Of a DNA stretch of 64,000 bases, positions 664-62,164 are shown in pieces. Numbering within the stretch: the stretch's first letter is position 1; every line of letters begins with the position of its first letter. Both the position numbers and the translations under genes were made by a program. The stretch comes from Diphasiastrum complanatum (Eukaryota; Streptophyta; Lycopodiopsida; Lycopodiales; Lycopodiaceae): assembly GCA_029204225.1 (NCBI GenBank), contig CM055100.1:9522481-9586480 (forward strand), written 5' to 3'. Below the pieces are notes generated by a model. That model saw only the letters and a list, made by a program, of their open reading frames with translations, had not been told where the DNA came from and searched no databases.

Positions 664-1190
664 ATAAATTTGCACTCTTTTTTTTAAGGTTTCCAACCTC
701 AGCACAAAGCTAAAAGATAAACGTGTCACTTTAGGTGAGTTGAGTTTAAGTATAGGCCCCAAAGGAAGGCCCTGTGCCCTAAAAACTTAATGATTTTTTA
801 TTTTATTTTTAAAAATAGCCCACGATTCACTAAAAATAAATTTAATAATTTAATTTAATGATAATTACATGATCAATATTTTTTAATAATAGTAAGCATA
901 TTTTATAGAGTGTAATGTGTTGTTGTATGTGTCTAAAAATAATGATAATGTGTTACACATTTATACTCCTCCAATTCTTGGAGTAATAAATTCATGTGTG
1001 ATATTGTGGCTTTTAAGGTTTTACCAAAATACAGTGTGAAAAAAACATTCAAAATGTACTAGTTAATTCTTCTAGAATGTAAGTTTTATTTCTTTTATTT
1101 TTTAAAATTTTGAATGACACCAAAGCTTTTCCAAATACAGCAATCCTTATTTTTAATGATGCTTGTACCATTCAGAAAAGCAGACTTTCT
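664..1190. other. AT-rich intergenic sequence
   Basis: No open frame or family similarity was recognised. The stretch has many A/T runs and is probably the distal promoter of the helicase plus decayed sequence. Confidence 0.5.
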
Positions 1191-1194
1191 ATCC

Positions 1195-1505
1195 ATTTGA
1201 TGTAGATTCCATCCGAGTAACATCGCTAAAGCAATTACCATGTGAAGTGTGTTTCACTTGGCCACAGGAGCGAAGGTCTCTTCGTAGCCAATGCCCTTAC
1301 TTACGCATAGCCTTGCATTATGTTTTGCAATGGTTCCATCGACATTGTACTTTGTCATGTATTCCCATTTGTTGTCAATGGGTCTTCTGGAAGATCCACT
1401 ATCTCCCAAGTATCATGGTGTTTGATGGAATTAATTTCCTCTTGCATTGCTTTTTGTCATATCTCTTGATCCTTGGCCTCCTCAAAGCAAGAGGGTTTAG
1501 TAGAT
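1195..1505 (-). pseudogene. Ty1/copia reverse-transcriptase fragment
   Basis: Reading the minus strand gives a broken copia RT start: AMQEEINSIKHHDTWEIVDL, then the region that normally reads K-P-I-G-C-K-W-V-Y, followed by shifted remnants of the DGT-AKHNARL and GIDYEETFAPVAK blocks. Stops and frameshifts occur every 20-40 codons. Only the N-terminal third of RT is present and no LTR is nearby. It is an old fragment, unrelated to the plus-strand copia at 2.7-8.2 kb. Confidence 0.75.
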
Positions 1506-1800
1506 GATATAAGGTTGCTCATAAGCGCGCGAGATTTACTTGAAACCTATCAAGTTTCATCTTTTCTCTCGTGAAACATAGTAGCTCAGAATCAAAACAC
1601 AATGTTGTGATTGTTCATATGCATATGTCAAAGTCCTCAACCCTCACCTATAAGGGCCATAAGGAACTTAAGTCATTAAAAATGATGGGAAAACTCATGA
1701 TCAAACAAAAAGGTTAAAGTATTTAGAATTAAATACCGTAGAACGGCAAAAATGAAATAAGCTACCTAAAAGCTAAGTAAAACTTAGAATAGAAAACTAA
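1506..1800. other. Unassigned AT-rich stretch
   Basis: No coding signal or repeat family was recognised between the copia RT scrap and the LINE 3' end. Confidence 0.4.
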
Positions 1801-1895
1801 TTACTTAAAACCAACTGCCCGATTTAAGTCAAAAATTAAATATTAAACTAATTACTCAAAATCAACTGCCTGATGTAAATCACTAACTAAAATAG
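1801..1895. repeat. Tandem duplication at the LINE 3' end
   Basis: The segment beginning ttacttaaaaccaactgccc at 1801 recurs diverged at 1852 (ttactcaaaatcaactgcct), so the last coding codons plus the adjacent sequence are duplicated with a period of about 51 bp. Confidence 0.5.
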
Positions 1896-2750
1896 ATCCA
1901 ATAATAGGTAATGCAGGAAGCTTTGAAGTAGCCGCTCCTGCAAACTGTGCTCGTCGAAGAATTGAAATCGCCTGTGAACGTTGTAATGCTATAGAAATAC
2001 GCTGACGGTAGAAAGAAATAATGACAGAAGGTAAAGTAATGCTTTGTCCTTGGCGTTTCACCATAAGCTCCGCACATAAAAATAAAAAATCATTAAATTT
2101 CTTGTGGAGACAACCATAAGTTTCCAAGGCAAAGGGGATGAAATCTTCACCGAGTGCACGATCATTATAATCTCTTTCTTTTTCTTGGGCTGCTTGAGAT
2201 GCAGTGGCCCCTTGCGTGGTGGAAGAACGACGAAGAAGGTCTTGACGAGAGGGATCAGCAATTACAACATCTCCCAGAGTACGAATTCCATCACGCTAGA
2301 GAACAAGGTCAACTCGTCGTCGGATAGATTGCGATGAAGGCCCTGGTAAACTGTGTGTCTGTTCTCGAACAACATGAAAGCCACTATCATGAGCAATAGC
2401 AGCCAGGGCATCACGAATGGAATCATGTGAAACAATACGTTCTCCACTTGATGGACAACGCATAAGATGAGTACCCAAGGAATCCAATACATGCCCACAT
2501 GAACACTTATAGATATCAATTAACATTGGATGTGGAAGTCCCAACCTGGTTCGAAGGGCAGTTATAAACAAGTCATTATTGAGTCTCAATAGTGGAAGAA
2601 CTGGACGTGCAACCAACCAAGCCCCTGCACCTGGACCAGCACAAGATAGAAGACGAGTTCGAACTACATCAGAAGGTGAATCTTTGATAAGCTGACCGAA
2701 AGAATAAGAGTGAAGATGCTCCATAATAGTCTTCTGAAAAACTCGTTGTT
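1801..2750 (-). mobile_element. LINE, C-terminal part: CCHC knuckle plus restriction-like endonuclease
   Basis: Minus-strand continuation of the RT at 8178-10060, separated from it by an inserted copia. An open frame (2724 to 2296) carries GAGAWLVARP, then a C-x-C-x9-H-x3-C knuckle near 2505-2455 (CSCGHVLDSLGTHLMRC). Next come SHDSIRDAL, where R2-like proteins usually have RH, and RRRVDLVL. After one TAG it resumes with GDVVIADPSRQDLL, YNDRALGEDFIPFALETYG and a C-terminal tail ending in TAA at 1852. This order matches the knuckle plus restriction-like endonuclease (RLE) at the C-terminus of single-ORF LINEs of the R2/NeSL/Hero/Utopia groups (family knowledge). One stop is visible in the endonuclease. 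The exact clade is not determinable by eye. Confidence 0.75.
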
Positions 2751-2756
2751 GATTTA

Positions 2757-2989
2757 GTTAGAAAGTTAGAATCATTGTGTGACTGTAAGTGGGTCCTATC
2801 AGTGGATAAGGATCAGTTGGCCTCGCCACGAGGCAAGTCGACGGGACACGCGTCCCGCCAACGGCAACCTGGGTCATGCATGGGTTGCTTGAGTGAACAA
2901 CTATATGTACAGTGTAATTTCATTTTGAGAAATACAGTTGCTATGTGAGCTTGTTGAGGAGAGTGATTTTCTGTCTGTGTTACTGTGTA
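2757..2989 (+). repeat. 5' LTR of the nested copia element
   Basis: Matches the 3' LTR at 7963-8177 along its whole length. Six substitutions are seen, plus about 23 extra bases in this copy (near 2828-2850). Both copies end at GTTACTGTGTA. The start is only approximate (AGTTAGAA), and the usual TG...CA ends are not obvious. No clear target-site duplication was found next to the LINE sequence. Confidence 0.8.
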
Positions 2990-3014
2990 CGGGGAGTGTA
3001 CACAGTACAGTGTC

Positions 3015-3310
3015 GCCGTTGAAGAGAGCTTCGGAATGGCTTATTCCTCATTTCTTCTATTTCTTCAAAGTCTTTAGGCGCCATATCAGAACTCAACTCG
3101 TGCCCTTTCTCTATTGGAGTACTCATGACTTTTGAATCAGTCATTTGATAACGAATGAGCATCTCGTGGATGCACCTAGACTGACTCATGATGGTAACAT
3201 CTGCAGCAATATTTCTTTCTATCTCAATTCGCAAGCAATAAGCCAATTCCTCCAAATCTTTTAGAAAGGCTAGAAATAGATTAATCCCATAAGTTAGTGG
3301 ATACTTATGG
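3015..3310 (-). pseudogene. Copia RT fragment inserted in the leader of the nested element
   Basis: The minus strand reads LEELAYCLRIEIERN, SQSRCIHEMLIRYQM, STPIEKGHEL and EEMRNKPFRSS, the RT segment just after the YVDD box. Its sequence differs from the RT of the surrounding plus-strand copia, so it comes from another family. It lies between the 5' LTR and gag, in opposite orientation. Confidence 0.75.
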
Positions 3311-3766
3311 AAGACCCTCCTTGCCATAAAAGAAGAGTTCGGGGTTTTATGACAGGTTGAAGACGGAAAGAGAAGCATTGGTGCACGGTTTCTAATTTAT
3401 AGAGGCTTGCTAAGCTCAGCAGAGGGATTATTAGCCTGTGCATAGCATCAGACAGAGAAAAATTTGGTGAAAATTTGACAATTTCTAAGCCAGCTGAAAA
3501 TCGAAACCAGACTTGGGGTTACGGTTTTTATACATAACTGGTGATTTCTTCGCTGTTTGTGCACCGTTTTGGATGCCGTAAGGACAGGAAGGAAGCTAAT
3601 CACACTGTTAATCAGCCATGGAGAGATTCTGAGGTTTATGTCAGAGATTTGTCTCCAGACAGTTAACCTAGCATATTTGCGGTAAAAAGGTGAAAAAGCC
3701 ACTTTGTCAAGTTGAGCTAAAATAACCATTTCTCCACAGAATTTCCTGACTGAACATTCTAAAGTC
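3311..3766 (+). other. Probable untranslated leader of the nested copia
   Basis: Non-coding sequence between the foreign RT scrap and the gag ATG at 3767. No primer binding site of the TGGTATCAGAGC type was found after the 5' LTR. Confidence 0.4.
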
Positions 3767-4640
3767 ATGGATTCAGTAGGGCGACCCTGCTCCAGGCCTC
3801 AGATCGTTGAGTGAAAGTAGCAAATTGGATGGGATTTCCAACTATGCAGTGTGGAAATTCAAAATAAAAAACATACTGATGGAGAAAGATGTGTGGGAAG
3901 TCGTCACAGGTGATGAGAGAAGGCCGCCAAATGAAGCAGACATCAAAGTGTTCGACGAAAAGATGAGAAAAGCTTTGACCTTCATTAACTTGTCAGTGAA
4001 GGATCACATCATTACCCACATTTGTGATGCTATTACACCCAGACAGGCATGGGATGTGCTAAAGGAGCAATTCAAGACGTCAAATCCATCAAGAATCATG
4101 TTTCTGAAGTCAAAGTTGAATAGTGCCCGCATGGAGCAAGGAGAGCACATTCAGACGTACATGACCAGAATCAAGACAATGAGAGATGAACTGCATTCTA
4201 TTGGAGAACGCATACGTGATGTGGAGCTGGTGCATAATGCATTATGCGACATTGCAGAACCCTATCAGATGTTTGTGAGCGGAATAGCATCAAGAGAAAG
4301 ATTGCCAACCTTTGACGAGCTCACATGAATCTTGATGCAGGAAGAGCAACGACGAGAAATGGTGAAAGCTAGACGTCAAAATACTGATGATCAGGCACTT
4401 GCGACACGCCAAAAACAAGGCAAGGGCAAGGGCAAGAAGAAGACTAAACAGCAATTTGCCAAGTCTCAGGAGGATGAGGGATCTTCCAGCAAAACTAAGA
4501 AAAAAGGCAAGTGTTTCGATTGCGGTAAAAAGGGCCACTAGAAGAGTGAATGTCGCAAATTCCTAGCGGAACAAGGCAAGGGAAAACCAAAACAAGCAGA
4601 TAACCTTGTCGATGAAGGTGAGCTTGAAGACTCTAGCATC
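3767..4640 (+). pseudogene. Copia gag (UBN2 type with zinc knuckle)
   Basis: ATG at 3767 starts MDSV and soon shifts frame. From 3807 the gag reads LDGISNYAVWKFKIKNILME, followed by the UBN2 helices (AWDVLKEQF, ARMEQGEHIQTYMTRIKTM). A TGA interrupts at 4326. A lysine-rich linker precedes the knuckle CFDCGKKGHxKSEC, where a TAG at 4539-4541 falls just after the histidine. The frame then runs into the protease. Non-functional as it stands, but every gag part is present. Confidence 0.88.
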
Positions 4641-6150
4641 TTCATATCTGCATTGTCATCTAATCAAGATGATCAAGCATGGTATATTGACTCAGGAGCC
4701 ACAAGACACATGACAGGTAACAAGCACTGGTACAGTAGTTTGAAGGCATTGGATAATGGAACATCTGTTTCACAAGCAAATGGTGAGGTGTGCATGATCA
4801 AGGGGATAGGCACAGTTTCAATCCAATTGCTTGACAGCAAAAGCAGGATGATCAGGAAGGTACTTTACATACCAGGTTTGAAGAAAAATCTACTTTCTGT
4901 TGGAGTCATTACTGATCAAAAGTTGAAAGTAGAATTCGCCCATGATCATTGCTTTGTGAAGGATGCGAACCAAAAGTTCAAAGTTATTGCGAATGGAGTA
5001 AGAGAGCCCAATACAAAATTGTACAGGTTGAATGCCACAATCAAGGGACAACATGGACTTGTGTCATCCGTTCCTTCGCAAACTGAGTTGTGGCACAAGA
5101 AGCTTGGTCACTTGAACTTGGGAAGCCTCAGTTTGATGAGAAAATTGGAGATGGTAACATGATTGCCTACAATAGAAGATCACTTGAAATTGATGTGCGA
5201 ATCTTGTATATATGGGAAGCAGCATCGAGAGAAGTTCAATAAAGGGGGTGTTGCAAGAGCAAAGAACATCCTGGATTTAATCCACACAGATTTATGCGGG
5301 CCCATGAGGACCATGTCCTTAGAAAAAGCCTTCTATTTCATGACCTTTATTGATGATATGTCACGTAAGACGTGGATCTACTTCTTGAAGAAGAAATCAG
5401 ATGCTTTTGATAACTTCAAGAACTTCAAAAACTTGGTCGAAAATCAGACAGGTAAGAAGATCAAAGTCCTAAGATCAGATAGTGGAGGTGAGTATAAGTC
5501 TAATGACTTCAATGATCTTTGTGATCAATGTTGGATTAAAAGACAGTTTACGCAAGCTCATACTTGTGCTCTCAATGGTGTAGCTGAGCGCAAAAATCGT
5601 ACGATTGTGAAAAGTGCCAGATCTATGCTAGCTGATGAAATTACCAAAAGATTTTTGGTCAGAAGCATGTAGCACGGCAGTCTATCTTCAAAATAGAAGT
5701 CCTACCATTGCCATACCAAAAATTACACCTGAGGAAGCATTCACAAAGAAGAAGCCAAAGGTGAACCACTTGCGAATCTTTGGATGTAAGGCCTTTGTAC
5801 ATATTCCTAAGGAAGAAAGACGTAAACTTGATGTAAAAGCTATCAAGTGCATATTCCTAGGATATGATGATCGCGTGAAGGGCTATAGATGTTTTGATCC
5901 AGTCGAAAAGAAAATCCATATAAGCCGAGATGTTATCTTTGATGAATCCAAGATGTATGAAGACGAAGATGCTGAGAAGATAGACACATCCAGTAGAAGA
6001 AATGGCATAGTGAGGATACAACTTGATGATGATCCATTCATTGACCTTCCGAGTGATGAACATGAGGATACATCTCAAGATACTACGTCTCAACCTCAAG
6101 AAACAGGTTGGAGAGGTAGGGACAAACCTTTTGGTGCAAAGAAGGATTGA
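4641..6150 (+). pseudogene. Copia protease and integrase
   Basis: Protease active site WYIDSGATRHMT at about 4680-4715. The integrase HHCC finger is LWHKKLGHLN ... MCESCIYGK (5090-5215), interrupted by a TGA at 5161. The catalytic D, D and E occur in IHTDLCGPM (about 5283), RSDSGGEY (about 5475) and GVAERKNR (about 5580). A frameshift near 5635 moves translation to the next frame, where the C-terminal part (FWSEACSTAVYLQNRSPT, IFGCKAFVHIP, GYDDRVKGYRCFDP) continues to a stop near 6148. All three catalytic residues are retained, so breakage is recent relative to other copies in the window. Confidence 0.9.
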
Positions 6151-7867
6151 AATTGCAGGTGACAAACGCAAGGAGAAAGATGTACCGTGGGATACATTTT
6201 CACCAGGAAGCCGATCACCTGACAGAAAGCTCCCTAAGTGGTTTGAGAGATTGATGGAGAGCCGCGATATAGATGACTTTCCAGGATCATCTAACCAAGG
6301 AGAGCTAAGAAGATCAACAAGAGAGAAGGTACTACCTGAAAGGTATGAAGCAAATTATGCTCTGTTATCCAGAGGACCTTCGACTTATGGTGAAGCGAAG
6401 GATGATGACATTTGGATCAAAGCCATGGGAGAGGAGATGGAGTCAATTGCTAAGCATAGCACATGGGACTTAGTAGAACCACTAGTTGGCAAGAAACCCA
6501 TTGGTTGCAAATGGGTATATAGAACTAAGTACCATGCAGATGGAAGCATAGCAAAGCACAAAGAAAGATTGGTAATCAAAGGGTACACACAAAATAAAGG
6601 CATTGACTATGAAGAGACCTTTGCGTCGGTGTGTAAGTGGAATACTCTACGTCTACTTATTGCTTTAGCTTCACATTTTGGTTGGCCTTTGCATCAGATG
6701 GATGTGAAATCTACTTTTCTAAATGGTGAGTTAGAAGAAGAAGTGTTCATGGATCAACCTGAAGGCTTTGTAACGAAAGGACAGGAAAATAAAGTATGTC
6801 GCTTGAAGAAAGCGCTTTATGGTCTTAAATAAGCACCACCTGCGTGGTATAGCAGGATTGATGCCTAATCTCGTTCAAAGGGGATGGTGAGAACACATTC
6901 TGATCCAAATCTATATGTCTTATGCTTTGATGGTATGGTTGCTTTGATTGCTCTTTATGTTGATGACTTGATTATTACGGGAAATAATCAAGAGATGATA
7001 GACATAATCAAGAAAGACCTCATGAAACAATTTGAGATGACGGATCTCAGCCTGATGCATTACTGCCTTGGAGTAGAAGTGTGACAAAAAGGACATGAAG
7101 TGGGTTTAACACAGGTGGAATATGTCAAAGAGTTACTACACAGGTTTAGGTTGCAGGATTGCAAACCAGTAAACACTCCTATTGAACCAGGTAAAAAGCT
7201 TTCTAAGCTTGATGAATCACAATCATTTGATGCTACGCTACATAGACAGTTAGTAGGGAGCTTGATTTACCTTACCACAACTAGACCAGATATATGCTAT
7301 GTTGTTGGCATTGTAAGTCAGTTTATGGCAGCACCTACGGAAACGCATTGGAAAGCAGCTAAACGCATTTTGCGTTATGTGAAAGGCACATCAGAGTATG
7401 GCTTGATTTACAGGAAGCATGATGGTTTACCTGAGTTGTGTGGCCACGTGGATGCGGACTGGGGAGGTGACTATGATGATCGTAGATCCACCACAGGATA
7501 TATATTCCAGTTTTGTGGTAATTGTTTTTCCTGGTCTAGTAAGAAGCAAAGTACAATTGCTCTTTCTACCACAGAAGCAGAGTATAAGGCAATGTGTAGT
7601 GCTGCACAAGAAGCTATATGGTTGAGACAAATATTGGAAGAGATTGGCATGAAGCAGAAAAATCCCACAACTTTACATAGCGACAGTCAGAGTGGCATTC
7701 AGCTAGCAAAGAATCCAATGTTCCATGCGAGAACTAAACACATTGAGATTCAATATCACTTCATACGTGAAAGACTGCTAAGTCGTGAAATTCATGTTGT
7801 TCATTGTAGCACAGAAGAACAACTAGCTGATATTTTCACTAAGCCACTTACTGGAGAAAAGTTTTGA
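6151..7867 (+). pseudogene. Copia reverse transcriptase and RNase H
   Basis: RT begins near 6400 (WIKAMGEEMESI, GCKWVYRTKYHADGSIAKHK) and runs through HQMDVKSTFLNGELEEEVFM to LKKALYGLK, where a TAA replaces the expected Q codon (about 6830). A broken 60-bp stretch follows, then YVDDLIITG at about 6957-6983, a TGA at 7082, and an open frame 7100-7867. That frame carries the RNase H blocks VDADWGGDYDDRRSTTGY, STTEAEYKAM, LHSDSQSGIQLAKNP and EEQLADIFTKPL. The order IN-RT-RH identifies Ty1/copia. The final codons are shifted at about 7865. Confidence 0.9.
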
Positions 7868-7950
7868 TAAGTTTAGATCAAAACTTTCTGTATTTAAAAT
7901 TTGTTGACTTTAAAGCTATGTATATGACTGTATAAAAAGTGACTCTACTT

Positions 7951-7962
7951 AAAAGGAGAGAG
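7951..7962 (+). other. Polypurine tract of the nested copia
   Basis: AAAAGGAGAGAG directly abuts the 3' LTR, the expected site of plus-strand priming. Confidence 0.7.
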
Positions 7963-8177
7963 TTAGAATTAAAGTTAGAATTACTGTGTGACTGTAAGTG
8001 GGTCCTATCAGTGGATAAGGATCAGTTGGCCTCGCCCGCGTCTCGCCAACGGCAACCTGGGTCATGCATGGGTTGCCTGAGTGAACAACTATATGTACAG
8101 TGTAATTTCATTTTGAGAAATACAGTTGCTATGTGAGCTTGCTGAGGAGAGTGATTTTTTGTCTGTGTTACTGTGTA
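7963..8177 (+). repeat. 3' LTR of the nested copia element
   Basis: About 215 bp, colinear with 2757-2989. All six substitutions between the LTRs are C/T differences on the plus strand. The LINE reading frame resumes on the minus strand immediately to its right. Confidence 0.8.
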
Positions 8178-10060
8178 GCATGATCTATGTTCTTGTGCAA
8201 AGCAAATTCTAAGTGATTTGTCACCAAAGATTCAAAGGGAGGCACAAAGTAAATCTCGAGCAGTGCGTAGAGCTTGTTGAAAAGCAAAATTGCTAGTTTC
8301 CACATGAGTTACCGCATCAAGAAGAAGAGGCTGGTTACCCTGCTGAAACCTGGAGACTAGTGCAAAGGCAACAAGAGTCCAACTTCCAAGAAAAGCACCT
8401 GGTGCAATGCAAGCAGTAGATACAAGGCCAACACCGCCAGAGGAAGCAAGAAGAGAAATTTGCCGCTTAGAAAACTGACCTTCACAGGTGTCAAAGGTTC
8501 CTGGCCCCAAAAGACGACCAAATACACCCAATAAAGCATCATCAAAATCTCGAAGTAAGGATATTATATCAGGTGAAGGAGATACGCAACGTAGAAGATA
8601 GCTAGGACGTTGAGCAAAGCACTGAGTGAGAATTCTAAATGCAACCTGAGAATTTCCATGCTTTGGCAACAAATCAGAATGTCGAGCAAAACCATCCAGA
8701 GCTTCCCGCATAAATGAATTAACATATCTAGAAGAACCAATCGGAACACCCAAAGCCTTAATCCCAAGCTGAGGAGTAATGAAACCTTTAGGCAATGAGA
8801 TATTTGCTGGAAGGCCTTTTGGGCACCAAGCAACGCACTTATCCTTGTTCACTGTAAGCCCAATAAAAGAAAGTTGAGCTAAGAAATGCAAAAAGGCAGG
8901 GACAACTTCACTTGCAGGCCCCACAATATGAGTATCATCCACAATAGAGGGGAAAAGACAGGACTGAAAAGCTGAAGTTGTAGCACGCAATGCTTTATAA
9001 TGTGCCAAAGCAAAGAGAGGACCACCCAAAGGATCCCCTTGTTGAGTTTCTTCAGCAGAAGAAATGACGGTAACATCACCAGCACGAGAAGCATGACTAA
9101 AGTATAAAGGAGAACTTTTTGAATAGAAGCTCCGCACAAAAGGAATAAGCATAGCAAGTGTATCTTGAGCACCACGAAGTTCTTGAAAGATAGCCACTAG
9201 AGAAACTGAGTTAAAAGCATTAACAACATCAATTTGCAATACTACCTAGTCAGGATGAATATCCAAAATAGCGCGTAAAGTATGAACGACTGTCTCACAA
9301 CTGCCAGGAGTAGCACACCCAAATTGAAATGGAAAAAGATGAGCATGAAAGGGTTCTCGAGACTGGAAACAGAGTGCCCTTGCCACCAACCTGTATAAAC
9401 ATTCCCCCACTGCAATTGGACGCACACCACCAGAAGCTTTATCCAATGCTAAAAGATGAGTAGCACCTAAAAAATGAGCAACTGAAGGTGGGATTTGCCC
9501 AGATGCAATGAAAGAGCACACCTTGAAGAGAAGATCAAAGCCACTAGCAGAATCTTCTGGTGAAAAACAATCACGTAGATGTTCAAAAACCATTCCTGAA
9601 GGTCCACCGGCTGAGAGATGAGGACTACACAGAAAAGCTTTCATAAAATGAGCTTTTGCAAGTTGAAGATCGGAGTCAGGTTGAAAGTCTTTCACAAATA
9701 AAGGAAAAATATCACTTGCATGGGGATGGAGTTGTTTCAATGCCTGAATAGTTGTAGAAGAAGGTGCTGCCGAAATTGATGGAGCAAGAGCATGTGCAGC
9801 CCGAGAAAATTCACCAGCTTGTCCAAGCAAAACACAATGACGTAGACGACTATGAATATGAATGGAACCCAAGTCGGAGTCTGAATTAAACTCCCATTTT
9901 GCTGCAAGTGCATTGCAACGAAAAAAAAGTTCCTCTTGCAAATTTTCCCAATCACCTGACATGAAACAACGAATTCTGTTACGTGTTTCCCGATGACCTG
10001 CTTCAAACTATGTGCCTGAAACTGCTGGTAGTAAAGGTATGATTTAAATTTTTTGTTGAG
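8178..10060 (-). mobile_element. LINE, reverse-transcriptase part (RLE-type single-ORF element)
   Basis: From 9962 leftward, a frame (upstream residues reading FEAGHRETRNRIRCF) carries RT motifs LSAGGPSGM, DKASGGVRPIAVGECLYRLV and FQFGCATPGSCETVVH. After one TAG at 9246-9248 it continues with motif A (QIDVVNAFNSV), B (QQGDPLGGPLFAL, about 9040), C (SIVDDTHIVG, about 8940, V-DD rather than Y-DD), D (GLTVNKDKCVAW) and E (ALGVPIGS). A TGA ends the long frame at 8232, but in-frame residues run on to the copia boundary and would join the segment at 2750. All RT catalytic aspartates are present. No apurinic endonuclease or upstream ORF is seen. The 5' end beyond 10060 is truncated or frameshifted. 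Confidence 0.85.
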
Positions 10061-31707: not shown

Positions 31708-33717
31708 ATGGCTTCAAACAGAAGGTGCAGGACTATGAAATTGGTTCTTTTTCTGAAGGTTAGCATGTGCACTTTGTTTGTACATTTTGGGTACTCGTGC
31801 GCTGGATCCATTGAAGCTGACAGCGATGGCAGGTGTTTTCCACTCCTTTTTGCTTTTGGGGATTCTCTGTCCGATACTGGAAATGCACAACACATTTTTC
31901 CTTTGGAGCAAAAGCGCGCTGCAATGCTTCCCTATGGCCAGACCTTCTTCAATCGTCCTAACGACAGATTCTCTGATGGCCGCCTCTTGATCGATTTCAT
32001 TGGTGAGACAGACTAATTCTGTTAGCATTTGTGAATCACATGCCTACAATGTGTCAATCAGCATGGTCTCATATAATTTAGTATATCTACAGCAGCAATA
32101 TGAACACGAACCATAACAGTCTACGTATATATGCTGTCAATCAATCAGGTGTTCAATACTTAAACCCTTTCCTATTGCGATTTATAAGAAATCCGGAATG
32201 AAATAGGATAATGAAGTTTTAGCTTGTCGCTTTATTTCGTGCTAATAAGAAGATCACCTTGCTGCTGCAGCGCAAGCTCTGAGGCTCCCCCTTTTAAATC
32301 CCTACGTAAAGAGTGCCGGGACTAGCTTTCAGCAAGGAGTTAATTTAGCAACATCGGGAGCCACAGCAACTGATATCGCCTTCTTGGTTCCATACACGCT
32401 GAGAGTGCAGCTATACTGGCTTAGAAAATTCAAGGCCAATATTCTTGAAAGACTAGGTTCAAACGGTACAACATACAACTACAACTGCAAATCATAGTAT
32501 CTCATAAGAAAAAGCAATTGATGTGGCTATAGCTCGAGGGAATTGTTATATTTGCCTGGATGATAAAATTGATCAATCAGTTTCTGCATGCAGACACCTT
32601 ACAGTCATCATTGCCTCCTCTCGACTCTATTAGTAAAGCTTTATACGTTGTTTGGATTGGTGGTAATGACTACAACGCTCGGCTTTTCGTGTATAACATG
32701 ACAATGGACCAGTTGACGAAATCTGTGGATGAAGTCATGAATGCAATGTCCTCTAATCTAGAGGTATACAATTATATAATGCATATAAAACTGATGGACA
32801 GTGCATCACTGAAGGCTAATCTCCGATGATCTACTATACATCTAGTACTGCTTGCCAACCAGAATCACTCGTCCCTTAACAGAGAAAGCTCAAGCGTGCT
32901 AAAATATTGTATGCTGTAGAGATCATCTACTCATCTTTTCAGTACTACCAAGTCGTCATCTTTCAGCTCGCTCATCTTTTATTTACAAAAGTATCTCCAC
33001 ATAAATGCAAATATAGAACCAAGAATCAATGATTCAACGATTGGCTGATCCTCATTCATTTGTCAACAGGATCTGTACACTGAAGGAGCAAGGGCAATAT
33101 TGATTGTAAATCTTCCACCAGTTGGATGCACTCCAGAAGTGCTGACTTTCGTACGAGGACATCCGCATGAATATGACTCCGTCGGCTGCTTCCGGCCATA
33201 TAATGAAGTATTTCGAGCTCATAATAAGGTTCTGAAGGAGTTGTGGCACAATCTGACCCGATTGCATCCTGACGCAACTTTTGTACACGCGGATTACTAC
33301 GCCATCTCCTACGACATACTACGGCACCCCCTGAAATATGGTAAGCAAAACAGCTTATTTTCTATGTACCAAATCAAAAATTGCTTTTTCCTTTGGGATG
33401 ATCATTCAATCTTCGAGCATAGTATTTCAATGATTTCTTGCTTTTCAGGGATGGCTAATGTGATGCAAGCATGCTGCGGATTGGGTGGGAGCTACAACTT
33501 TGACTTCTCACTGCAATGTGGCATGATTCTAGATATCATTGGTGCGCTTTACAGCCCGCCAGCTTGTAAAAATCCAGCAATATATTCCAATTGGGATGGT
33601 ATTCATCCAACAGAAGCTTTCTCCCAGATTGTTGCAGCAGCTTTCCTAACTGGGCAGTACATTGAGCCTGCAGATGCATTCCAGAATTGCACCTTTGACT
33701 TTAGCATGTTTTTGTGA
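31708..33717 (+). CDS. GDSL esterase/lipase, complete, five exons
   Basis: Exons 31708-32002, 32271-32456, 32594-32763, 33070-33340 and 33449-33717 join in frame to 396 aa. All introns are GT-AG. Residues 9-33 form a hydrophobic signal peptide, so the product is probably secreted; a second in-frame Met at 10 could also start it. SGNH hydrolase blocks: I GDSLSDTGN (51-59, nucleophile S53), II NLATSGA (G128), III IGGND (N185), V DGIHP (D357, H360). The length and exon number are typical of plant GDSL lipases, which hydrolyse acyl esters in the cell wall or apoplast; the substrate is unknown. Upstream are a TATA-like TATTTATA near 31667 and a CT microsatellite. No lesion found, so the gene is probably functional. 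Confidence 0.93.
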
Positions 33718-59690: not shown

Positions 59691-61393
59691 CCACTACATG
59701 ACTACTTTCCAGCATTAGGACCGCAAAGGAAGCAGTTGTGGTTCGTTTGCGGCCAATTGAGGCCATTTCACCACATTTTTTGACCACAATGGACCGCAAG
59801 GCAACCATTTTTTTATCAATCAAAGCAACCTAGAAATTCTTGTGAAAACATTTATGACATGGCTTACTTCCTTTTTATGAACTCAATGGTTTTTGTAGAA
59901 TTTATGTCTCTTAAGAAATACACTATATCAGATATAGGGTAATCCTAATCCTTTACTGTTTACCTTTTGATTTATATTCAATTCTGATAAAGGTGAGCAA
60001 CCCTTTATAAAAGTCTGATAAAAGTGAGCACCTTTGACAACCGTGGGGGAGAAGCTATTGTAGCTTTCGCAACTCCATACCTTCATCATTGCTTTTATGA
60101 TCTTCGTTTGTCCATTATTTTTCTGAATAATTTGAAGCTGCAAGTTTGATGAATCATGTCTGAATCTGGATTCTGAATTTTCTCATCAGAAGTCTCGAGA
60201 AGTGAGAAGGACACCAAGCTAGTTTCATCTTCATTACCCACGTTTTCTTCTCAAATCATATGAAGGAATGGCTGTTTTGCTAGTGGTACAATATATCATG
60301 AGTCCAACTGCAAATGCAATCTAGCGTTGGAGTTCCTTCATTGGTGCAGATATTTGAAAATTTACCCAAATTGTCGTGGGCTGTAGCTGGTTTAATATCA
60401 TCTTTTCTTACCAAAAGTATACTCCTGTTTGCGTTATTGTTGGTTTCAACGTCCTTTTACCGCAGGCTCGCTGTAGAATTATCATCCTGGAGGTGGGCTG
60501 GTTATGAACGTTCAACGTTGCAGCTTGATATTTGATTCCTTGAGATCTGATTGACGGTATGGTGACTCTATTCTTTGATGATGTGATTTTTCCTGTCAGT
60601 AAAGCAGTTGGAAATGGTAGTTAACCAGATGGCTATTGAAAACATTTTGAGGTGAAGAGGGAGAAACTAGCGGGAGGCATATGTATTATCACTATCAGTG
60701 TGGGATAATTCACATATTTTTTGATCTTAGCGAGCCCTCGATCAGTTTTCTGTTGACATTTACACAATCTGAGATAAAGAAATTATATCAATGATAGTCG
60801 TTATGGATCAACCAAATACTAATGCTCGAGATCATGGAGGTCTATAAGAAAAGTTGACTTATAAGTAGCATTACCATACTGACAATGATGTTGCTTAAGT
60901 AGACGATGCCACTTGTTAAAGATCAAACATCCTTCCTTTGAATCAAGTTCTTCTACGTTTTGCTCTACTGTTTCTACTAAAAAACTGGAAGCTGCTCTGG
61001 AATTCTTCATTGATGCCTCTGATTGTTGTAAGTTAAGTGACAAATGTAACCTCCTAGAGGTGGTTGACGTTGCCAATCAGCACCTACTTCGGATATTGTT
61101 GATTTATAAGTAGATAAATTTTTGGAAACTTTTTGACATTATGCAAGTCTCACTTGGCAATTGATGTTGATTTTGAGGAGCTTTGACACCGGGAAAGTTC
61201 TCTGGGTGCACGATGATGCGTGAATTTTATTTATACTTTCTTGATTCTCCAAGTTCCGGATTCAGCATTGAAAACTACCTCGTATTTAATTTCAATTTTG
61301 GATTGGTTACTTGATTTGTACCTGCAATGGGATCTCTAGCATTTTGGGTGTAATATCCAAGCTTATTTGCATTCGTTAAATTTGTGGTTACAG
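59691..61393. other. Upstream region and probable 5' UTR intron of the LRAT/NC gene
   Basis: A splice acceptor (GTGGTTACAG) ends at 61393, 30 bp before the LRAT ATG, so at least one non-coding upstream exon is expected. Its donor and the promoter were not located. A 73-codon frame at 60314-60535 contains a hydrophobic helix (GLISSFLTKSILLFALLLV) but has no recognised relatives. Confidence 0.45.
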
Positions 61394-61423
61394 GAAAATA
61401 TCGCATATTTTGAAGAAAAATTC

Positions 61424-62164
61424 ATGGACCTTTTTTCTCATAGCGTTCAGAGGGAGGCATTGCAGCCAGGTGATCATATATACTCTTGGCGAAATGCATA
61501 CATCTTCGCACACCATGGAATATACGTTGGTGATGGAAAAGTGATCCACTTCACAGGTGGTCGGAATATTGAAGAATTGGCCGGATGTCGCTCGTTTTCG
61601 AGTGCATTAACCTCAAGTTCAATACCTGGCTCCACTACATTTCCTTGTGAAATATGTGGCACTGACGCAGAAAGCCGGGGAGTGTTGAAGTCCTGCCTTG
61701 ACTGTTTTCTGTCTGGTTTTCCATTGTCCCGTTTTGAATATGGCACGAGCAGCGCAACATTTATTGCCAAGCTTCGGGGCGGAACATGTACAACTGCCAA
61801 ATCTGATCCTTCAGAGCTTGTCCTGCACAGAGCCAACTACCTGCTTAGCATCAATGGCTTCGGTTGTTATCACGTCTTTCGAAATAATTGTGAAGATTTT
61901 GCTATTTATTGCAAGACTGGACTACTTGCGATTGACAGAAATGCGATCGGAAGTAGTGGACAGGCCACGTCTTTTCTAGGTATAATATTGGCTGTTGCTG
62001 GCTCCATTTCTTCGTGTTTCAGTAGGTCAAACTTCTGGGGCTTGGTTGCTTCATTTGGAGCATACAGCATGAATAGGTATATGAGCGATATAGGTGTTCG
62101 AAGTGATGTTGAGAAAGTTGATGTTGAGGATCTAGCAGTGAATCGTAGTCGGCAACACGCATAA
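61424..62164 (+). CDS. LRAT/NC-domain protein (plant NC-domain family), complete
   Basis: 246 aa in one exon from ATG 61424. An in-frame ATG at 61367 would lie in presumed intron sequence before the acceptor at 61393, so it was not used. LRAT fold: LQPGDHIYSWR (13-23), HHGIYVGDGKVIHFT (30-44; H31 and H42 are candidates for the catalytic histidines), NNCEDFAIYCKTGLL (154-168, nucleophile C156). Two CxxC pairs (C75/C78 and C91/C94) resemble a small zinc site typical of the plant members. The C-terminus (about 184-216) is hydrophobic, possibly membrane-associated. LRAT/NlpC-P60 relatives are acyltransferases or thioesterases; the plant substrate is unknown to me. Length is normal and no lesion is seen. 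Confidence 0.92.
   Translation: MDLFSHSVQREALQPGDHIYSWRNAYIFAHHGIYVGDGKVIHFTGGRNIEELAGCRSFSSALTSSSIPGSTTFPCEICGTDAESRGVLKSCLDCFLSGFPLSRFEYGTSSATFIAKLRGGTCTTAKSDPSELVLHRANYLLSINGFGCYHVFRNNCEDFAIYCKTGLLAIDRNAIGSSGQATSFLGIILAVAGSISSCFSRSNFWGLVASFGAYSMNRYMSDIGVRSDVEKVDVEDLAVNRSRQHA

Follow-up and report, generated by a model that had tools for sequence, protein, structure and literature searches.

In this work, a copy of a long interspersed nuclear element (LINE) was found on the minus strand, at 1675..10007, of a 64,000-nucleotide (nt) stretch of DNA (contig CM055100.1, positions 9,522,481 to 9,586,480; hereafter the window). Its protein joins a reverse transcriptase (RT) to a C-terminal restriction-like endonuclease (RLE). 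We read it as a copy, dead and truncated at its 5' end, of a multicopy RLE-type retrotransposon without long terminal repeats (LTRs), which encodes a single protein, is not site-specific and resides in a spore-bearing plant, and we give this reading a probability of about 0.93. The RLE LINE family is real and was formerly active. Elements of this kind are already known, and it is the plant host and the dispersal that are unexpected. A first-pass annotation of the window had proposed that an RLE-type LINE lineage lives in this plant, which is borne out by the architecture of the protein, the profile match of the RLE and the position of the RT outside L1. The LINEs usually ascribed to plants are L1 and RTE. 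LINEs with an RLE are considered the more ancient kind, site-specific for the most part (PMC4640811), and are known from animals, protists and oomycetes (PMC4640811, PMC5348765).

Architecture of the element

The searches covered a genome of 1.74 Gb (5,176 contigs). For the RT, 120 of 3,309 candidates were scored, giving 121 match rows, and for the RLE 150 of 2,842, giving 150 matches, duplicates being included in both; the matches were spread over many chromosome-size contigs. In the window, the LINE is split by a nested LTR element on the plus strand (2756..8213, frames 3807-7867), which from its motifs we take to be of the copia type and which is flanked by a 5-6 nt duplication (AAATCA). 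Among the 29 sibling RT loci (L010-L038, some of them duplicates of a single insertion), 20 pass directly from window position 8214-8216 to 2755-2756, with a short overlap matching this duplication, and the remaining nine have deletions or alignment gaps at the junction or end short of it. Since the junction is uninterrupted in 20 of 29 siblings, both halves belong to one element, and a single stop-free frame of 968 amino acids (aa) in the sibling locus L069 also spans the two. The annotation had joined the RT and RLE halves across the insertion while allowing that they might be unrelated, which they proved not to be.

The domain plan was assembled from two siblings together, since L069 is without the N-terminus and L070 without the full RLE. 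The frame of L069 is 5'-truncated and complete through the RLE, and L070 has an open reading frame (ORF) of 1,007 aa from TTG, which takes in the N-terminus but breaks off within the RLE. Five stop-free matches among those listed sit in frames of 1,008-1,119 aa, L070 being the one inspected. The combined order is zinc finger, RT, CCHC zinc knuckle and RLE, the last being an endonuclease of the PD-(D/E)XK kind. The N-terminal zinc finger of L070, CAGCGRLYVQGAGLSRHHNAC (CAGC...HHNAC), was identified by eye, Pfam reporting RVT_1 only (E 3.2e-16 in L069 and 3.7e-16 in L070). NCBIfam pointed weakly to group II intron RT and, in L069, gave one further chance match.

All corresponding parts of the window copy lie on the minus strand, where every motif string quoted in the annotation was recovered. 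The pre-RT region and the N-terminal part of the RT (9249..10007; MSGDWENL..., GGVRPIAVG) form a stop-free frame with 69% identity to L069 aa 45-295, and window 9246-9962 reaches RVT_1 at E 0.3 only. The catalytic part of the RT with the thumb follows at 8235..9245 (66% identity to L069) and contains QIDVVNAFN (9210-9236), QQGDPLGGPLF (9012-9044) and IVDDTH (8928-8945); window 8232-9239 matches RVT_1 at E 5.4e-6 with 26.7 bits, under the Pfam cut-off of 29.6. On the other side of the nested insertion, ALRTRLGLPHP (2527..2559) is in our reading a putative counterpart of KXRINALP, the linker motif of R2 (PMC5678591). The CCHC knuckle CSCGHVLDSLGTHLMRC, with the spacing CX1CX9HX3C, is at 2455..2505. 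The RLE domain, as aligned by hhalign with R2 RLEs, occupies 1858..2430 and includes SHDSIRDAL (2404-2430), RRRVDLVL (2299-2322), GDVVIADP (2251-2274), KERDY (2167-2181) and DFIPFALETYG (2113-2145).

The endonuclease domain

A profile of the RLE (12 rows, two from the window) was compared with a profile of three R2 RLEs. The hhalign scores in the two directions were 37.5 and 31.9 (E 3.3e-5 and 2.7e-4), with 26% identity over about 90 columns. Among 200 column shuffles per direction, none reached the real score either way, the maximum in the second direction being 19.4, and the reversed R2 RLE used as a control gave 23.8 and 18.9. Furthermore, the catalytic columns are aligned: the D residues of RRRVD and GDVV fall under KPD and VDV of R2, and the K of KERDY under its EK. 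The annotation had made its proposal of a C-terminal RLE depend on some similarity to RLE domains, and this similarity is present, at 37.5 against a shuffle maximum of 22.5 in the same direction.

Placement of the reverse transcriptase

The RT profile (33 rows, two from the window) had R2 proteins as its top matches in PDB, namely the near-identical pair 9nl3 (E 1.8e-6) and 9dou (2.7e-6), and 9nl2 (5.9e-5). These were followed by bacterial group II-type RTs at 0.075-0.39, and L1 ORF2p was not among the matches at E ≤ 1. As a control, L073, an L1-type LINE of the same genome, had L1 ORF2p ranked first in PDB (2.7e-34). The window RT fragment alone gave no RT match in PDB by phmmer. An unrooted tree was built from about 142 core residues of 8 taxa, among which neither RTE nor group II was represented. 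In it, L1Hs and L073 were grouped with supports of 98.6 (Shimodaira-Hasegawa-like approximate likelihood ratio test, SH-aLRT) and 97 (ultrafast bootstrap, UFBoot). The element stood outside this group, beside R2Tg on a branch of length 2.3, and the splits among the R2 sequences had 46 and 52 UFBoot. Thus, the element is not an L1; tree, PDB search and control agree in this with the annotation, for which an RT inside L1 was the outcome to be feared.

Another reading would make the element a plant LINE of the L1 or RTE type with a C-terminus that only resembles an RLE. The element is like such LINEs in being a multicopy LINE of a plant with what would be a target-primed life cycle, an L1-type LINE is present in the same genome, and LINEs of the apurinic endonuclease (APE) type likewise end in a CCHC knuckle (PMC5678591). 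However, the type and the position of the endonuclease differ, and neither an APE nor another endonuclease upstream of the RT was matched by Pfam up to E 10 in L069 and L070, which gave RVT_1 alone. The RLE similarity stands above 200 of 200 shuffles, L1 is missing from the PDB matches, and the tree, which has no RTE reference, sets the element apart from L1Hs and L073. RTE appears disfavoured by the predicted architecture, there being no Pfam APE domain in the sibling proteins. An L1 or RTE origin therefore has hardly any chance of being correct.

It is very unlikely, too, that the element is of the Dualen/RandI type, which carries both APE and RLE, and has lost its APE part. Dualen is an RLE-bearing LINE on record in green algae and hence in the green lineage (PMC8226300, PMC4640811), and it differs from the present element in also having an APE (PMC4640811). 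The 5' end of L070, on the other hand, lies about 75 nt ahead of the ORF, and the approximately 410 aa that precede the RVT_1 match hold the zinc finger read by eye and no APE match. This 5' end is a defined one, as two insertions in L070 whose flanks differ both open with ATTCTACTGAAAAGC. In addition, all 40 copies scored out of 397 candidates match from the first base of ATTCTACTGAAAAGC onward, with a query that starts there and is blind to sequence upstream in the copies. L070 also holds, at 5718-6501, a second copy of this LINE that is internally deleted, with its 5' approximately 625 nt joined to RT sequence; some 1 kb separates it from the first copy, which lies upstream.

Insertion sites and 3' ends

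A readable 3' end with at least 100 nt of flank was available in 41 of the 58 sibling loci, and the other 17 were dropped. These 41 three-prime ends, all of the window's subfamily and taken from the copies that match the window best, so that they are no random sample, fell into 25 unrelated flank groups. Each group represents one insertion (duplicates or a locus fetched twice), and between groups only a simple GA repeat is in common. In a second subfamily, described below, the two 3' ends compared also have different flanks. The window's subfamily is thus not site-specific, and neither is the element in the copies examined, contrary to the suggestion of the annotation that it might be. Most 3' ends read AAAATCAGGG(A/T)TAAT or near, followed by zero to a few ATT or TAT units; L057 and L030 deviate. 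Just ahead of the 3' end, a hairpin ATGGG-TTTT-CCCAT was observed in 11 of 18 printed ends, in both subfamilies, with one extra pair in L046 and with damage in others, including the window copy. We take it to be a putative recognition hairpin for the RT.

The alternative of a site-specific RLE element in the style of R2, NeSL or Utopia, aimed at a repeated gene or a microsatellite, draws on the mostly target-specific nature of four of the five RLE clades (PMC4640811) and on the 3' tails, which are short ATT-like repeats. It has to face the 25 unrelated flanks among 41 ends, 5' flanks in which no ATT array was shown, the differing ends of the second subfamily and the lack of any Rfam match at gathering score in L069 and L070. 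The flank groups do not point to a 28S ribosomal DNA (rDNA) site, as in a strict R2. Nor do they point to U2 small nuclear RNA (snRNA) genes, as in Utopia, since there is no common flank and no Rfam match in the two loci to which Rfam was applied. Targeting of a microsatellite or gene was therefore rejected on the flanks, and we consider it most improbable.

Both ends were readable in ten loci (seven insertions), where only the candidate target duplications of L023 (10 nt) and L011 (8 nt) are convincing. We hypothesize, by analogy with R2, that the element protein would recognize its own RNA by the 3' end, with the conserved terminal hairpin as the probable binding site, that the RLE would nick DNA at loosely chosen sites and that the RT would start target-primed reverse transcription of this RNA at the nick. 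Incomplete copying would give rise to 5' truncations, and short AT-rich tails and irregular flanking duplications would also result. The truncation, the tails and the dispersal are themselves observed in the copies.

Comparison with known RLE elements

With R2 (9nl3, 9dou, 9nl2 and Bombyx 8gh6), the element has in common a single protein in which RT, CCHC knuckle and the RLE at the C-terminus align collinearly, and an N-terminal zinc finger, which is documented for R2 (PMC5678591) and read by eye in the element. It differs in the low RLE identity (about 26%), the RT branch of 2.3, R-V-D in place of the K-P-D of R2, the knuckle spacing, the lack of a shared target and the plant host. Utopia and NeSL have, by description, the same domain plan (PMC4640811), but Utopia targets U2 snRNA genes and the element has no shared target. 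HERO, also compared by description, is an RLE clade with many non-specific families (PMC4640811).

Several results weigh against our reading of the element. The hhalign probabilities of the RLE comparison were 72% and 41%, and hmmsearch alone scored the RLE stretch at a non-significant -1.0 to 1.9 bits per domain, so the signal is weak unless profiles stand on both sides. AlphaFold models had mean confidence (predicted local distance difference test, pLDDT) of 40 for the RLE half and 44 for the L069 protein, too poor to use. The knuckle CX1CX9HX3C departs from the consensus before the R2-type RLE, CX2-3CX7-8HX4C (PMC5678591). The match of the RT to R2 is also weak: Bombyx R2 (R2Bm, 8gh6) was not among the PDB matches of the RT profile at E ≤ 1, and L069 searched singly found R2 at 2.6e-4 with a group II/retron-type RT close behind (8.2e-4). 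Moreover, the L1-type L073 matched R2 at 5.5e-17, better than the 1.8e-6 of the element, whose RT is therefore divergent. Flanking duplications are few; apart from the two convincing cases, the shared ends were weaker (L032/L034 7 nt, L019/L029 6 nt, L030 6 nt); L012, L021 and L026 had no duplication of at least 6 nt, and L069 and L070 none of at least 7 nt.

Subfamilies and residence in the genome

L069 and L070, which are 97% identical in DNA, represent the second subfamily, with 65-70% protein identity to the window pieces. Between the subfamilies, the synonymous divergence (dS) was 1.0-1.3. Ten comparisons covering RT and RLE put the ratio of nonsynonymous to synonymous divergence (dN/dS) at 0.14-0.24, with 0.18 and 0.19 for the two RLE pieces of the window against the second subfamily. 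Such ratios at dS of at least 1 indicate that both subfamilies were under selection. Within the window's subfamily, dN/dS was 0.44-0.64 (six RT comparisons), as expected for mostly decaying copies, and between L069 and L070 it was 0.79 at dS 0.03.

These values also bear on a recent horizontal transfer from an animal or an oomycete, in which case the host would be incidental. The plan of zinc finger, RT and RLE is found in LINEs of animals and oomycetes (PMC4640811, PMC5348765). Long residence is nevertheless indicated by the divergence of the two subfamilies (dS 1.0-1.3) and by the spread over many chromosome-size contigs, unless two separate transfers took place, as is possible. A search for close relatives in the viral and prokaryotic contigs of IMG/VR and GTDB found none, as expected for a plant element. 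Recent transfer is thus unlikely.

The window copy and its surroundings

The limits of the window copy were set by similarity to the 29 sibling RT loci and 29 sibling RLE loci. Sibling similarity begins at window 10003-10009 where siblings reach so far, several siblings extend further upstream, and the N-terminal region past window 10005 is present in 11 of 29 (tblastn with the L070 N-terminus). The window copy is therefore 5'-truncated and lacks the zinc-finger N-terminus. At its 3' side it runs to 1675, beyond the limit at 1801 set in the annotation, and the final 15-20 nt (approximately) common to the siblings are missing. The damaged window version of the 3'-terminal stem-loop, ATGAGTTTTCCCAT, is at 1685..1698 (minus strand). 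Just beyond the cut 3' end, window 1163-1507 (minus strand) resembles, by its motifs, a putative copia RT fragment, and the LINE tail may have been lost in a rearrangement involving this sequence.

A TAG stop interrupts the RT (9246..9248), another the RLE (2296..2298), and a frameshift region at 8232..8260 ends in TGA (8232-8234), while the other frame goes on, sibling-like, with FVPPFESLVTN (all minus strand). With two TAG stops, a frameshift, the nested insertion and both ends clipped, the window copy is dead. The few lesions noted in the annotation thus hold for the coding parts only and not for the copy overall. The nested element has terminal direct repeats at 2762-2989 and 7971-8177 with 89% identity, the agreement being confined to those spans, and an antisense frame at 2980-3378 resembles another piece that we likewise assume to be copia. 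The insertion may therefore itself be rearranged.

Further along the window, a GDSL-lipase-like frame (33100-33717) and an LRAT/NC-domain-like frame (61367-62164), both tentatively named from their motifs, are likely host gene exons. Elsewhere in the genome, L073-L075 (C3692:16500-39500) form a 19.69-kb tandem unit with 100% identity over 3.3 kb. It carries the first approximately 600 nt of 18S ribosomal RNA, GC-rich spacer repeats, a plant U3 small nucleolar RNA, U6atac and a long run of N. It also carries an antisense L1-type LINE with a frame of 1,577 aa, whose RT is near L1 ORF2p, whose 3' side abuts the broken 18S and whose APE part we assume from motifs. This could be a plant L1 inserted in rDNA or a rearranged unit. 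Matches to zf-RVT occur at similar spacing in C895 and C4778. Frames of up to 7,233 aa were considered as LINE arrays and rejected for C3692, where the long N run beside the LINE yields such frames.

Host and significance

The dynein heavy-chain stalk domain (PF12777) was matched 16 times among 37 candidates, and several of these matches lie on contigs of chromosome size. Dynein heavy-chain genes are not known from flowering plants and conifers, and dynein heavy chains fit a plant with swimming sperm. As the genome encodes them, the host is not a flowering plant, the group whose LINEs the annotation had used for comparison. It is a spore-bearing plant, probably a lycophyte, namely a clubmoss. 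The literature searched, whose coverage is incomplete and which includes PMC4640811, PMC5348765, PMC5718144, PMC8226300, PMC5678591 and PMC11630846, contained no account of an RLE LINE from a land plant. We put forward tentatively, as rather more doubtful than probable, that the element belongs to a new clade-level lineage of RLE LINEs present in land plants since their early history, which gave up target specificity and multiplied in a lycophyte into an abundant, dispersed family. If this were true, plants would not be confined to LINEs of the APE type, and seed plants would lack RLE elements through secondary loss. With a multicopy RLE family with long open frames in a spore plant, inheritance followed by loss in plants becomes testable, and the family offers a natural example of an R2-like enzyme working without a fixed target.

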